63,233 nt of DNA from Chloroflexota bacterium (GTDB lineage: Bacteria; Chloroflexota; Chloroflexia; Chloroflexales; Roseiflexaceae), in contig JACAEQ010000009.1 in the NCBI GenBank assembly GCA_013388755.1, positions 1 through 63,233 of the forward strand. The letters are read 5' to 3'. Under the pieces are notes generated by a model. That model worked only from the letters and a program-made list of their open reading frames with translations. It ran no database searches and was not told the DNA's origin. This document shows positions 43,351 to 60,868 of this stretch, in pieces. The first letter of the stretch is position 1. Each line of letters opens with the position of its first letter. The position numbers were made by a program, and so were the translations under genes.

Positions 43351-44136
43351 CTACGACCAGCGCGTCAGGATGTTTTCGCGTTCGAATAGCACATTCGCGC
43401 CACCAAGCGCAAGCGCGGCCAGGAACGCCAGCGCCGCACCGGCGATAATGGCCAGCAGCGGACTCAGCACCAGTACGCCAATCAGTTGAGCGAAAAAGAG
43501 CGCCAGCAACGGCACGACGACCACTGCTGCGATCTGCTGCGCACTGCGAGGATCATTCACCCGCCCGGAGATCGCCACCGTTGCGGCAACCATGATCAGC
43601 GCCAGCGACGGCGCGCTCAGGAGAAGCAGCAACACCCAGCTGCCACTGACGATGACCTGGTAGACACGATCACTCACCACAACCAGGCGAAGCGCCAGCA
43701 CGAAGATCAACGCCGTCGTCCAGGTGATGGCGATCGCCGGTATGAGCGACGCCAGGCACTTCCCCAGCAGTAGTTCCCAGGTGCGTACCGGCGTCGCCAG
43801 CAATGGCTCCAGCGTGCGGTTGGTCTTCTCGCCAACGATACTGTACGATGCGATAACGGAAGGGACCAGCAGTGGCATTAACAGGAACAACAGGCCGAAC
43901 TGCTTACCCAGCACTGCCTGGCCCAACTCACGTTCGGACAGGCCGGCAAATGCCGGATCAGCGACGACTGCGCCGAGTTGCCGGGTATCTTCATCGGGTG
44001 TGCGACCAATAGCAGAGATCACGACGAGCGGCATCAGGGTGAGGATCAACGGTGGGATGATCAAGGTGAGCAGCAGGGTGCGCTCGCCGCGCAGTTCGAG
44101 CCACTCTTTCTGAAGGATCACCAGCGCTTTGTTCAT
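43351..44136 (-). CDS. ABC-2 type transporter permease
   Basis: A 261-residue membrane subunit with a short N-terminal helix (ALVILQKEWLELRGERTLL), a first span, a periplasmic loop, and five further spans (for example PSVIASYSIVGEKTNRTLEPLLATPV, broken here by a WELLLGKCLASLIPAI continuation). The EKTNRTLEPLLATP segment is the typical ABC-2 exporter coupling region, as in NatB/YhaP relatives. Its start overlaps the ATPase stop (ATGA). It probably exports ions, lipids or a peptide; the substrate is not readable. Confidence 0.88.
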   Translation of the reverse strand: MNKALVILQKEWLELRGERTLLLTLIIPPLILTLMPLVVISAIGRTPDEDTRQLGAVVADPAFAGLSERELGQAVLGKQFGLLFLLMPLLVPSVIASYSIVGEKTNRTLEPLLATPVRTWELLLGKCLASLIPAIAITWTTALIFVLALRLVVVSDRVYQVIVSGSWVLLLLLSAPSLALIMVAATVAISGRVNDPRSAQQIAAVVVVPLLALFFAQLIGVLVLSPLLAIIAGAALAFLAALALGGANVLFERENILTRWS

Positions 44137-45065
44137 GCGGTTGCTTCTCCTCCACGCACGAGTTGCAGGTAGACATCTTCCAGCGAGTGTTCGCGCGCCT
44201 CAACATAGCGGACTGCCGCGCCGGCCTCCACCAGGGCGCGTACCAGGTGCGGGTTCTGGTCGTCAGGGTCGTCAAGCGCCACATGCAGTGTGTCACCGGC
44301 CACCTCGGCGGCGTGGACGAACGCGAGGTTGCGCGCGACATGCAGAAACGCCGCATCGTCGCCGGCGAGTTGCACGCGCGTACCACGACCGAACAGCTCG
44401 GCGCGCAGTGTGGCAGGCGCGCCGATGCGCAGCAGGCGAGTGCGAAACACGGCAATGAGATCGCATAACTCGTCAGCTTCAGGGAGATTGTGAGTGGTCA
44501 GAAAGATCGTGCGCCCCTCGGTGCGCAACTCTTTGATGAACTCGCGTACTGTGCGGGCAGCCTCCGGGTCGAGGCCTGCTGTCGGTTCGTCGAGGAACAG
44601 CACCGGCGGGTCGTGCGAGAGGGCGCGCGCAATCGCCAACTTCTGGCGCATGCCCCTGGAGAAGCCCCCAACCGGATCGTCACGGCGCTCCCACAGGCCA
44701 AGCATGCGCAGGTACCGTTCGGCCTGCGCCTCGGCGCGATGGGCATCAAGATCGTACAGGCGGGCGAAAAACACGAGATTCTGGCGAGCGCTGAGTCGAT
44801 CGTACAGGCCGGGGCTTTCGGTCAGCAGGCCAACCCTGCGCCGGATCTCCTGATCCGACACGCCGAGACGGTTGCCTTCTATCACCGCGCTACCCGACGT
44901 TGGCGCAATCAGCGCCGCGAGCATGCGTACCGTTGTCGTTTTGCCCGCGCCATTCGGGCCGAGAAATCCGAACACGGCGCCGCGCGGTGCCGCCAGTGTC
45001 AGGTGGTCAACGGCGACACGATCGCCGAAGGCACGGGTGAGCTCATAGGTTTCGATGGCATGCAT
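44133..45065 (-). CDS. ABC transporter ATP-binding protein
   Basis: A 310-residue nucleotide-binding subunit with Walker A FGFLGPNGAGKTTTVRML, signature GGFSRGMRQKLAIARAL, Walker B VLFLDEPTAGLDPEA and the switch His in TIFLTTHNLPEADELCD. The C-terminal ~90 residues form the extra domain common in NatA/YhaQ-type exporters. The start is ATG 45065 (MHAIETYEL); the upstream in-frame extension has poor composition. It pairs with the permease at 43351-44136. The 45066-45322 gap upstream holds a hairpin (CAGGGCGAGG/CCTCGCCCTG, 45108-45141) and a MITE. Confidence 0.95.
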   Translation of the reverse strand: MHAIETYELTRAFGDRVAVDHLTLAAPRGAVFGFLGPNGAGKTTTVRMLAALIAPTSGSAVIEGNRLGVSDQEIRRRVGLLTESPGLYDRLSARQNLVFFARLYDLDAHRAEAQAERYLRMLGLWERRDDPVGGFSRGMRQKLAIARALSHDPPVLFLDEPTAGLDPEAARTVREFIKELRTEGRTIFLTTHNLPEADELCDLIAVFRTRLLRIGAPATLRAELFGRGTRVQLAGDDAAFLHVARNLAFVHAAEVAGDTLHVALDDPDDQNPHLVRALVEAGAAVRYVEAREHSLEDVYLQLVRGGEATA

Positions 45066-45156
45066 GAGGGGTGCGAGGCTTAGATGCGAGGCAGGAGGCG
45101 AGAAGCACAGGGCGAGGAATGCAACCTCGTGCCTCGCCCTGATGACCTCGCACCTC

Positions 45157-45314
45157 GTGTCTAGAACCAATATCTTTCAAATAAGGCGTTCTGCACCGCA
45201 CCGCCCCCCACCCAACCTCCCCCCGCCGGGGGGAGGAGTCGGACTCCCTCCCCCGGCAGGGGAGGGCCGGGGTGGGGGTGACGGGCGTATGTGAAAGGTA
45301 TTGTGTCTAGAACC
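45157..45314. mobile_element. MITE-like insertion with 12-bp target-site duplication
   Basis: GTGTCTAGAACC occurs at 45157-45168 and again at 45303-45314. Between them lies a 134-bp insert with terminal inverted repeats AATATCTTTCAAATAAGGC (45169-45187) and, inverted, AATACCTTTCACATACGCC (15 of 19 matching). The core is a G/C-rich inverted repeat (CCTCCCCCCGCCGGGGGGAG and a mirror arm). No reading frame for a transposase. A related core lies at 60764-60868. Confidence 0.75.
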
Positions 45315-45322
45315 GCGTGCCC

Positions 45323-46438
45323 TTATTCCAGGTAGCCACGCAATCCGCGCCCATAGTGAGGATGGCGCAGCTTGCGCAACACGCGGGCTTCGATCTGGCG
45401 GATACGTTCGCGCGTAATGCCAAACTCGCGCCCGACTTCCTCAAGTGTACGATAGTGGCCGTCATAAAGACCATAGCGAAGCTGAATAATCCGGCGTTCA
45501 CGCTCCGGCAATTTCTCGAGCGCGCTATCGATCTGCTCACGGAGAATGTGGTGAGAGGCGCTCTCCATTGGCGTAACGCCCTTGCCGTCCTCGATGAAAT
45601 CGGCCAGCACCGAGTCGCCCTCGGCGCCGACCGGCATCTCAAGCGAAATCGTCTGACGAGCAGCCTCAAGCACGCGACGGACCTTCTCGACCGGAATACC
45701 CAGTTCCAGCGCAATCTCGTCAGGCGTCGGGTCGTGTCCAGTCGTCTGTTGAATACGATTGCTGGTGCGCATGACCCGGTTGATCGTCTCACCAACGTGA
45801 ACCGGGAGGCGAATGGTGCGGCTCTGGTCGGCGATTACGCGCGTGATCGCCTGGCGAATCCACCAGGTTGCATACGTCGAGAACTTGTACCCTTTGCGGT
45901 AATCGAACTTCTCGGTCGCCCGCATCAGGCCGATATTGCCCTCCTGGATCAGGTCGAGCAACGACATACCGCGGCCAAGGTATTTTTTCGCAATCGAGAC
46001 GACCAGGCGCAGGTTCGCCTGGATCAGACGCTCGCGCGCAGCCTTGCCTTCCTGCACCCAGCGATGGAGCTGGAGGCGCTCCGCCGGCGTGTGGTCGCCA
46101 CAGCGTAACCGTTCACCGGCTTGCTCGCCACGCTCCACATGTTGCGCGAGCATAATCTCTTCCTGCGCCGTGAGGAGATTCACGCGCCCGATCTCACGGA
46201 GATAGACACGCACAGGATCGTCCATACCGACGCCTTCGACATCAATGTCGATATCATGCTCCAGCGAGTCGTCATCATGCCCGGCATGGAATGCTGCCGA
46301 CAAAACATCCGGATGATCGTGACCGCCAACGGCGCGCTCAAAGAGCTGTTCGACGGTCTCGGGCGATGGCTCTGAAGCAGGAGTGTGAACGCGAACGTGG
46401 TTGCGGGGAAGGGGCTGCGACTCGTGGGCCGTGGACAT
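45323..46438 (-). CDS. sigA: RNA polymerase primary-type sigma factor (sigma-70)
   Basis: About 371 residues. Region 1.2 is [20 protein letters not shown]. Region 2 has [20 protein letters not shown], then [20 protein letters not shown] and [16 protein letters not shown]. Region 3 has [16 protein letters not shown], and region 4 has [20 protein letters not shown]. It recognises -10/-35 promoters. It lacks a long region 1.1, having only a short acidic N-terminus. The predicted transcript starts near 46502, excluding a longer start; ATG 46438 is used, and GTG 46462 is possible. Whether it is the housekeeping factor or a group 2 paralogue is uncertain. Confidence 0.9.
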
Positions 46439-46508
46439 GAAGGGGTCAAGGGGTTCTTTCACATGCCACCAGCCTTCTGCACATAACGACCTATCAGTTG
46501 CACACGGT

Positions 46509-46537
46509 AAGATAGCACAAAATATGCCCAGGTTCAA
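46509..46537 (-). promoter_or_regulatory. Promoter of the sigma factor gene
   Basis: On the minus strand TTGAAC (46537-46532), a 17-base spacer and TATCTT (46514-46509). It fixes the 5' limit of the sigma gene. Confidence 0.65.
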
Positions 46538-47573: not shown

Positions 47574-47732
47574 AGTGCCTATCCAAAAAACGCTACGCCT
47601 CCTGTCATTGCGCGGAGCATGAGCGACCGCCTGCAGCGAGCGACGCGTGGCTGAAGCAATCGACCGGCGCGAGAGGAGATTGCTTCGCTCGCGATCGCAA
47701 TGACATTGACCATCTGGTTTTCGGATAGGCGC
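47574..47732. repeat. Complete MITE-like element between tal and tkt
   Basis: The left end AGTGCCTATCCAAAAAACG starts five bases after the tal stop. The right end GGTTTTCGGATAGGCGCC is its inverted counterpart. Inside are opposed REP arms (CCTGTCATTGCGCGGAGCAT and GCTCGCGATCGCAATGACAT). At about 159 bp it is the clearest copy in the window. Confidence 0.8.
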
Positions 47733-60635: not shown

Positions 60636-60763
60636 CCTCTTACCTCCTTGAGACTAGTACAGACCGGCGTACATTCCTAGAGGGTTTCGCGCGAGCTTTA
60701 GCGCGCCAGAATGCGACGCGCGACAGCGCAACTTCTACGCCTGAGCGTAGCAGGGTTCGCCTC

Positions 60764-60868
60764 CACACCAGCCCTCCCCCGCCAGGGGAGCGAGTCCGGC
60801 TCCTCCCGTCAGCGGGGGGAGGCTGGGAAGGGGCCATGCGATGCGTAGCGCCTGATGTGCAAGGTACT
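60764..60868. repeat. G/C-rich inverted repeat related to the 45-kb MITE
   Basis: The core CCCTCCCCCGCCAGGGGAGC with a mirror arm CCCGTCAGCGGGGGGAGGCT resembles the 45157 element core. The right end GTGCAAGGTACT (60857-60868), inverted, resembles AATACCTTTCAC. The left end is not recognisable. It sits in the 237-base gap between thiolase and reductase. Confidence 0.55.

Follow-up and report, generated by a model that had tools for sequence, protein, structure and literature searches.

An IS4-type family of non-autonomous elements with 10-bp target duplications in a Chloroflexota genome

MIC231 of Bacillus cereus is a mobile insertion cassette tied to IS231, a member of the IS4 family. It is non-autonomous, depends on an IS4-family transposase and carries passenger DNA. 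The element described here is likewise non-autonomous and would depend on a transposase of the same family, whereas it is only 136 bp long and has no genes. For full-length elements, the part of PMC2266710 that characterizes the IS4 subgroup gives a length of 1,400-1,650 bp, ends of the pattern -AATR--------WTW---- and duplications of 10-13 bp, and ascribes a strong target preference to some members. In the corresponding entries for other groups, the duplications are 10 bp for ISH8, 10-12 bp for IS231 and 8-10 bp for IS4Sa, whose ends begin with CA. Compared with the IS4 subgroup as it is defined there, our family is alike in its terminal pattern, its duplication length, the size of its full-length partner elements and the Nterm_IS4 and DDE_Tnp_1 domains of the partner transposases. 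It is unlike in that the MITE itself has no transposase and that D replaces K in the YREK motif of the partner transposases.

The window analyzed in this study is a stretch of 63,233 bp that forms one contig (C104) of a Chloroflexota bacterium, whose genome (hereafter the own genome) comprises 5.08 Mb in 145 contigs. A sequence-only reading of the window had described a 134-bp insertion with inverted ends and a perfect 12-bp target duplication, and had suggested that a duplication of this length could point to an unusual transposase. We consider, with a probability of about 0.94, that the insert belongs to a MITE family with many copies, which a DDE transposase of the IS4 subgroup mobilizes in trans.

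Borders and target duplication of the window copy

The 12-mer GTGTCTAGAACC was found exactly at 45157-45168 and again at 45303-45314, and it encloses an insert with inverted ends. The ends as first quoted agree at 15 of 19 positions by a count made by eye, the same figure as had been given. The identification of a MITE with a target duplication was thus confirmed, and its measurements were revised. The MITE occupies 45168-45303 on the forward strand, which makes it 136 bp rather than 134 bp long. It starts with CAATATCTTTCA and finishes with TGAAAGGTATTG, and each end extends one base further than had been drawn (a C on the left and a G on the right). The left terminal inverted repeat, CAATATCTTTCAAATAAG, lies at 45168-45185 on the plus strand and is identical at 17 of 18 positions, counted by eye, to the ends of a full-length element found in a relative (L175, see below). 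The right one lies at 45286-45303 on the minus strand and reads CAATACCTTTCACATACG as minus-strand sequence. Between them, a G/C-rich core at 45205-45278 is itself an inverted repeat, the arms of which (45205-45236 and 45247-45278) are 75% complementary. The small size, the lack of a transposase gene, the 18-bp inverted ends, the 10-bp target duplication and the 53 paired copies collected are all features of the MITE class.

The element sits between two genes on the minus strand. One encodes an RpoD-type sigma factor (45323-46537; the best matches of this ORF were RpoD models), and 19 bases separate its stop codon from the element. The other, downstream, encodes the ATP-binding protein of an ABC transporter (44133-45065; the start of the ORF was picked by eye and the stretch 44136-45074 was scanned).

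The two copies of the target duplication, TGTCTAGAAC, lie at 45158-45167 and 45304-45313. In the collected loci of the own genome, pairing ends at a distance of at most 320 bp gave 54 rows, and 53 after a nested row (L014) was removed. Among these 53 paired copies, 27 had an exact 10-bp duplication and 39 had one with at most one mismatch. At lengths of 5-9 or 11-14 bp, none of the rows had a duplication within one mismatch. Therefore, the duplication is 10 bp long and not 12 bp as had been proposed. It appears to be 12 bp at the window locus because the terminal C and G of the element match the flanks by chance: in the genomic sequence, a G precedes the 10-mer on the left and a C follows that on the right. 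In the other 14 copies, the two 10-mers differed at two positions or more, so some of these copies are old, recombined or mis-paired. The target consensus over 40 rows, with the nested row included, is GNTCTAGANC; positions 4, 5, 6 and 7 were C in 28, T in 35, A in 38 and G in 29 of the rows. A further 41 copies were labeled as coming from other genomes (at 10 bp, 13 exact and 22 within one mismatch; one exact at 5 bp; one within one mismatch at 11 bp). As this set includes an own-genome locus (L140) and probably holds some elements twice under two names, we rested no claim on it.

Copies, relatives and empty sites

A genome search with the terminal sequence, which had been proposed as a check, revealed a multi-copy family. 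The 19-base end pattern, at up to three mismatches, had 99 and 110 matches in the whole genome, compared with 1 and 0 for the reversed-reading control. Within the window, the 20-mer TCTAGAACCAATATCTTTCA occurred twice at up to three mismatches, against a mean of 0.00 over 100 shuffles. By both the shuffles and the backwards pattern, the repeat pattern of the window is not a product of chance. When the insert was used as the query against the own genome, 40 of the 168 candidates were scored. The first 40 rows, which include the window itself, were 86-100% identical to the query, and one further place was found at 79% identity. A profile was built from 41 copies of 125-145 bp, which were 79.4-98.5% identical to their consensus. 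The window copy aligned over the full model (positions 1-136, E = 6.4e-45) and was 96.3% identical to the consensus. The profile also matched 60757-60868 on the minus strand (E = 1.3e-22, model positions 2-114 of 136). The diverged relative previously noted at 60764-60868 is thus real, a decayed copy of the MITE family whose far end is absent.

Five contigs of the own genome (C2, C23, C53, C66 and C102) have a MITE copy within or very near their start (the first 50 bases). Since several contigs begin in or near a copy, breaks in the assembly seem to be due to this repeat. A literature search over titles and the beginnings of abstracts found no MITE of this kind, which does not prove that the family is undescribed.

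We also observed a second repeat family in the window, at 47578-47729 and at about 2030-2163 and 2164-2364. Its ends are like CCTATCCGAAAACC and its inner stretches like GTCATTGCGAGCGCGAGCGAAGCAATC, and it adjoins or lies inside copies of the IS4-type MITE (L104, L083/L111). This family seems to be a further MITE, and its flanks are TTAG/CTAR-like.

The end pattern was present in 14 of the 60 genomes searched, the own genome included, or in 13 of the 59 relatives. Among the 30 loci taken from this search, two of them from the own genome, 19 had a partner end within 320 bp, and the short elements differed in their cores. The exact end was found in 56 stretches of named genomes, which were mostly Chloroflexota (e.g. 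Oscillochloris, Viridilinea, Chloroploca and Roseiflexus) with a few others. Inspection by eye of six loci (L119, L121, L122, L133, L136 and L146) together with the own-genome copies revealed similar 18-bp ends around hairpin-like cores that differ across genomes, of a CCCTCTCCC type, a GCGCAAAGGCGCAAAG type and a CCCCCGCCGGGGG type. It is as if the ends captured local palindromic repeats.

The sequence-only reading had also proposed to look for an empty site with a single target in a related strain. Such a site was found for another copy, and at the window locus we found relatives that lack the insert but whose spacers could not be aligned. Five insertions were entered in the empty-site search, and an unbroken match was obtained for one of them, L132 in genome G052. 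Its joined flanks with one target copy gave matches that extend over the insertion point in G056 (92%) and G057 (88%); the target is CCCCTAGACG in G052, and CCCCTATACG occurs once each in the other two. An empty paralogous site within the own genome, L111, aligned at 81% identity to the sequences flanking the L083 copy; the alignment has a gap of 2 bases at the junction and another of 25 bases elsewhere. For the window locus, matches to both the sigma factor gene and the ABC transporter gene were retained in four genomes. In G003, G012 and G015, the two genes are separated by a short spacer that lacks the element; in G009 the spacer is longer, and no such ends were seen in it by eye. Because these spacers do not align to that of the window, they show the absence of the insert and not a single target. 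In G001, a near-copy of the target, GTGTGTAGAAC, occurs once beside the sigma factor gene with no element, with homology on the right side only, and this is no more than suggestive of a single target at the window locus.

Full-length elements with the same ends and the rival explanations

In Chloroflexia bacterium MGR_bin264 (JACDAU010000383.1, locus L175), one of the 56 stretches with the exact end, we found a 1,545-bp element both of whose 18-bp ends are CAATACCTTTCAAATAAG, with zero mismatches, and which encodes an ORF of 483 amino acids between them. The protein scored 171 bits against the NCBIfam IS4 family model (cut-off 115) and was above the cut-off for PF13006 and PF01609. All three proteins scanned passed the NCBIfam model NF033592 (171, 183 and 168 bits against the cut-off of 115) and both Pfam models. 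The flanks of the L175 element agree at only 6 of 10 positions. Compared by eye with Table 1 of PMC2266710, CAATACCTTTCAAATAAG fits every position stated in the IS4-subgroup pattern, and the duplication of 10 bp lies within the range given in that part of the paper, as do the lengths of L175 and of a more distant element of 1,598 bp (L150 in G039). L150 has the ends CAAGACCACTCAAATAAG and a perfect 10-bp duplication, GGGTTAAACG. Two other more distant elements were found in G036, L154 with the same ends as L150 and L156 with the ends CAATGCCAGTCAAATAAG.

In G005, two contig ends (L125/L139) each bear one half of a similar transposase, immediately within the same ends. Its N-terminal half passed PF13006, and both halves matched the NCBIfam IS4 model, each below the cut-off for the whole protein. 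The C-terminal half, scored apart, reached 22 bits against 23 for PF01609. With the N-terminal half as the query, matches were obtained in 6 of the 60 genomes, the own genome not among them.

The left end of E. coli IS4 is TAATGCCGATCAGTTAAG, and by eye it has 12 of 18 terminal bases in common with the ends of our family. Against the five partner transposases (L175, L150, L154, L156 and the G005 halves), E. coli InsG showed 26-30% identity, and it was 28-30% identical over about 410 amino acids to L175 and the G005 halves. In the alignment with InsG, the partners depart from the Y(2)R(3)E(6)K motif: Y and E are kept in all five, R in four (H in L154), and the position of K, which is K in E. 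coli IS4, is D in all five. When P0002 was searched against PDB sequences, three matches were obtained; the best of them, to a TPR-like chain (E = 0.005), was taken as chance.

A 188-bp copy in G052 (L118) is 87% identical over its first 84 bp to the left end of the partner. On account of this match, it is an internal deletion of a partner-type element. The window MITE has no homology to the partner inside the 18-20-bp ends, so that the ends alone are in common.

These results do not support the earlier suggestion that the long duplication signals an unusual transposase. In L175, the 18-bp ends shared with the MITE enclose a transposase of the IS4 family, and the relevant part of PMC2266710 puts duplications in the IS4 subgroup at 10-13 bp. 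The MITE is an ordinary kind of element, and a 10-bp duplication is normal for IS4. Cut-and-paste chemistry is of the IS4/Tn5 type and would probably apply to this family as well. Once bound to the 18-bp ends (CAATACCTTTCAAATAAG), the transposase would excise the element and join it to a target site opened by staggered cuts 10 bp apart, with a CTAG-like palindrome at their center, and filling of the gaps would produce the 10-bp duplication. A partner of the L175 type probably moved the window MITE in trans.

Within the own assembly, the search for a partner gave no match to P0001 at E ≤ 1e-5, a single match to PF13006 below the cut-off (E = 8.5), and no tblastn match to the joined G005 transposase in the collected loci. 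Twenty stretches around unpaired own-genome ends were re-scanned for ends, and ORFs were listed in three of them (L098, L100 and L115). PF01609 had four matches at three places; none of the four has MITE ends within four mismatches, and they were rejected as partners. The only IS4-family transposase seen in the own assembly is one of these four and is frame-broken (positions 705-1958 of L096, contig C8), and two pieces of it matched NF033591 below the cut-off for the whole protein. It was rejected as a partner because its inverted ends are unlike those of the MITE. We noted that it carries a YRRRAQIETYFSDQK motif, which fits YREK. The autonomous element with the same ends, which had been suggested for a search, was thus found in a relative and not in the own assembly. 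This absence is not firm because an assembly may lack a multi-copy element. Presumably, the partner was either lost from the own genome or left out of its assembly.

It is improbable that the family belongs to another group with long duplications (the IS231, ISH8 or IS4Sa subgroups, the L096 type or some unknown transposase) and that its resemblance to IS4-subgroup ends is superficial. Such an origin would agree with the duplication lengths of ISH8, IS231 and IS4Sa and with the initial CA of IS4Sa ends in the part of PMC2266710 cited above, and the own genome does hold a broken transposase of another IS4-family model and none of the expected type. However, by eye, IS231 and ISH8 ends start with CAT in that source, compared with CAA here, where the IS4 pattern fits throughout. 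L096 has different inverted ends, and in L175 the same 18-bp ends enclose a transposase of the IS4_1 model. Less probable still is a chromosomal palindromic repeat with a cellular function, of the REP-like or terminator-like hairpin kind, in place of a transposon. The element lies just past the stop codon of the sigma factor gene, and its predicted RNA folds strongly (-87.4 and -89.0 kcal/mol for the two strands, as raw energies without a shuffle control). A hairpin of this kind accounts poorly for the sharp borders, for the 10-bp duplications within one mismatch in 39 of 53 copies, or for the empty sites of L132 (in G056 and G057) and of L083 (at L111). Moreover, no Rfam family matched in 44500-46000, and neither a promoter-like nor an intrinsic-terminator-like site was scored in 45050-45450.

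Insertion at gene ends

Among 39 insertions, the target core was exactly at the stop codon of a long ORF in nine, compared with 2.8 expected (simulated P = 0.001), in a post-hoc test for which the idea came from the same copies and genes were crudely called as the longest ORFs of at least 120 amino acids. The expectation was derived from the occurrences of these core 4-mers across 463,233 bases of own-genome sequence, and the 39 insertions exclude copies with fewer than 8 of 10 matches in the duplication, copies less than 700 bp from a locus end and the one nested L014 row. When the insertions inside ORFs were left out, 9 of 27 were at a stop codon, against 4.8 expected (P = 0.034). In a smaller control, the proportion was 9 of 40 compared with 7 of 124 (all YTAR) or 7 of 81 (CTAG, TTAG and CTAA). 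Against a preference for stop codons, 12 of the 39 insertions lie inside ORFs, and an ORF of at least 200 amino acids spans the joined site in 11 of 49 copies, some of which ORFs may be spurious. The window copy is not at a stop codon.

It is a tentative idea, and in our view a rather doubtful one, that the MITE lineage owes its many copies to insertion at the ends of genes. In the own genome, the rare CTAG-like palindromic target would often be the stop codon itself. Because the 10-bp duplication copies the stop, the gene would stay whole, and a portable G/C-rich hairpin would be set immediately behind it, possibly altering mRNA ends.

For the annotation of this family, our results name the type of transposase and give the exact borders, the duplication length and the target consensus. 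The family also accounts for the repeat at which several contigs of the own assembly end. If the placement at stop codons is true, it would provide a testable idea of how a MITE can multiply without breaking genes.
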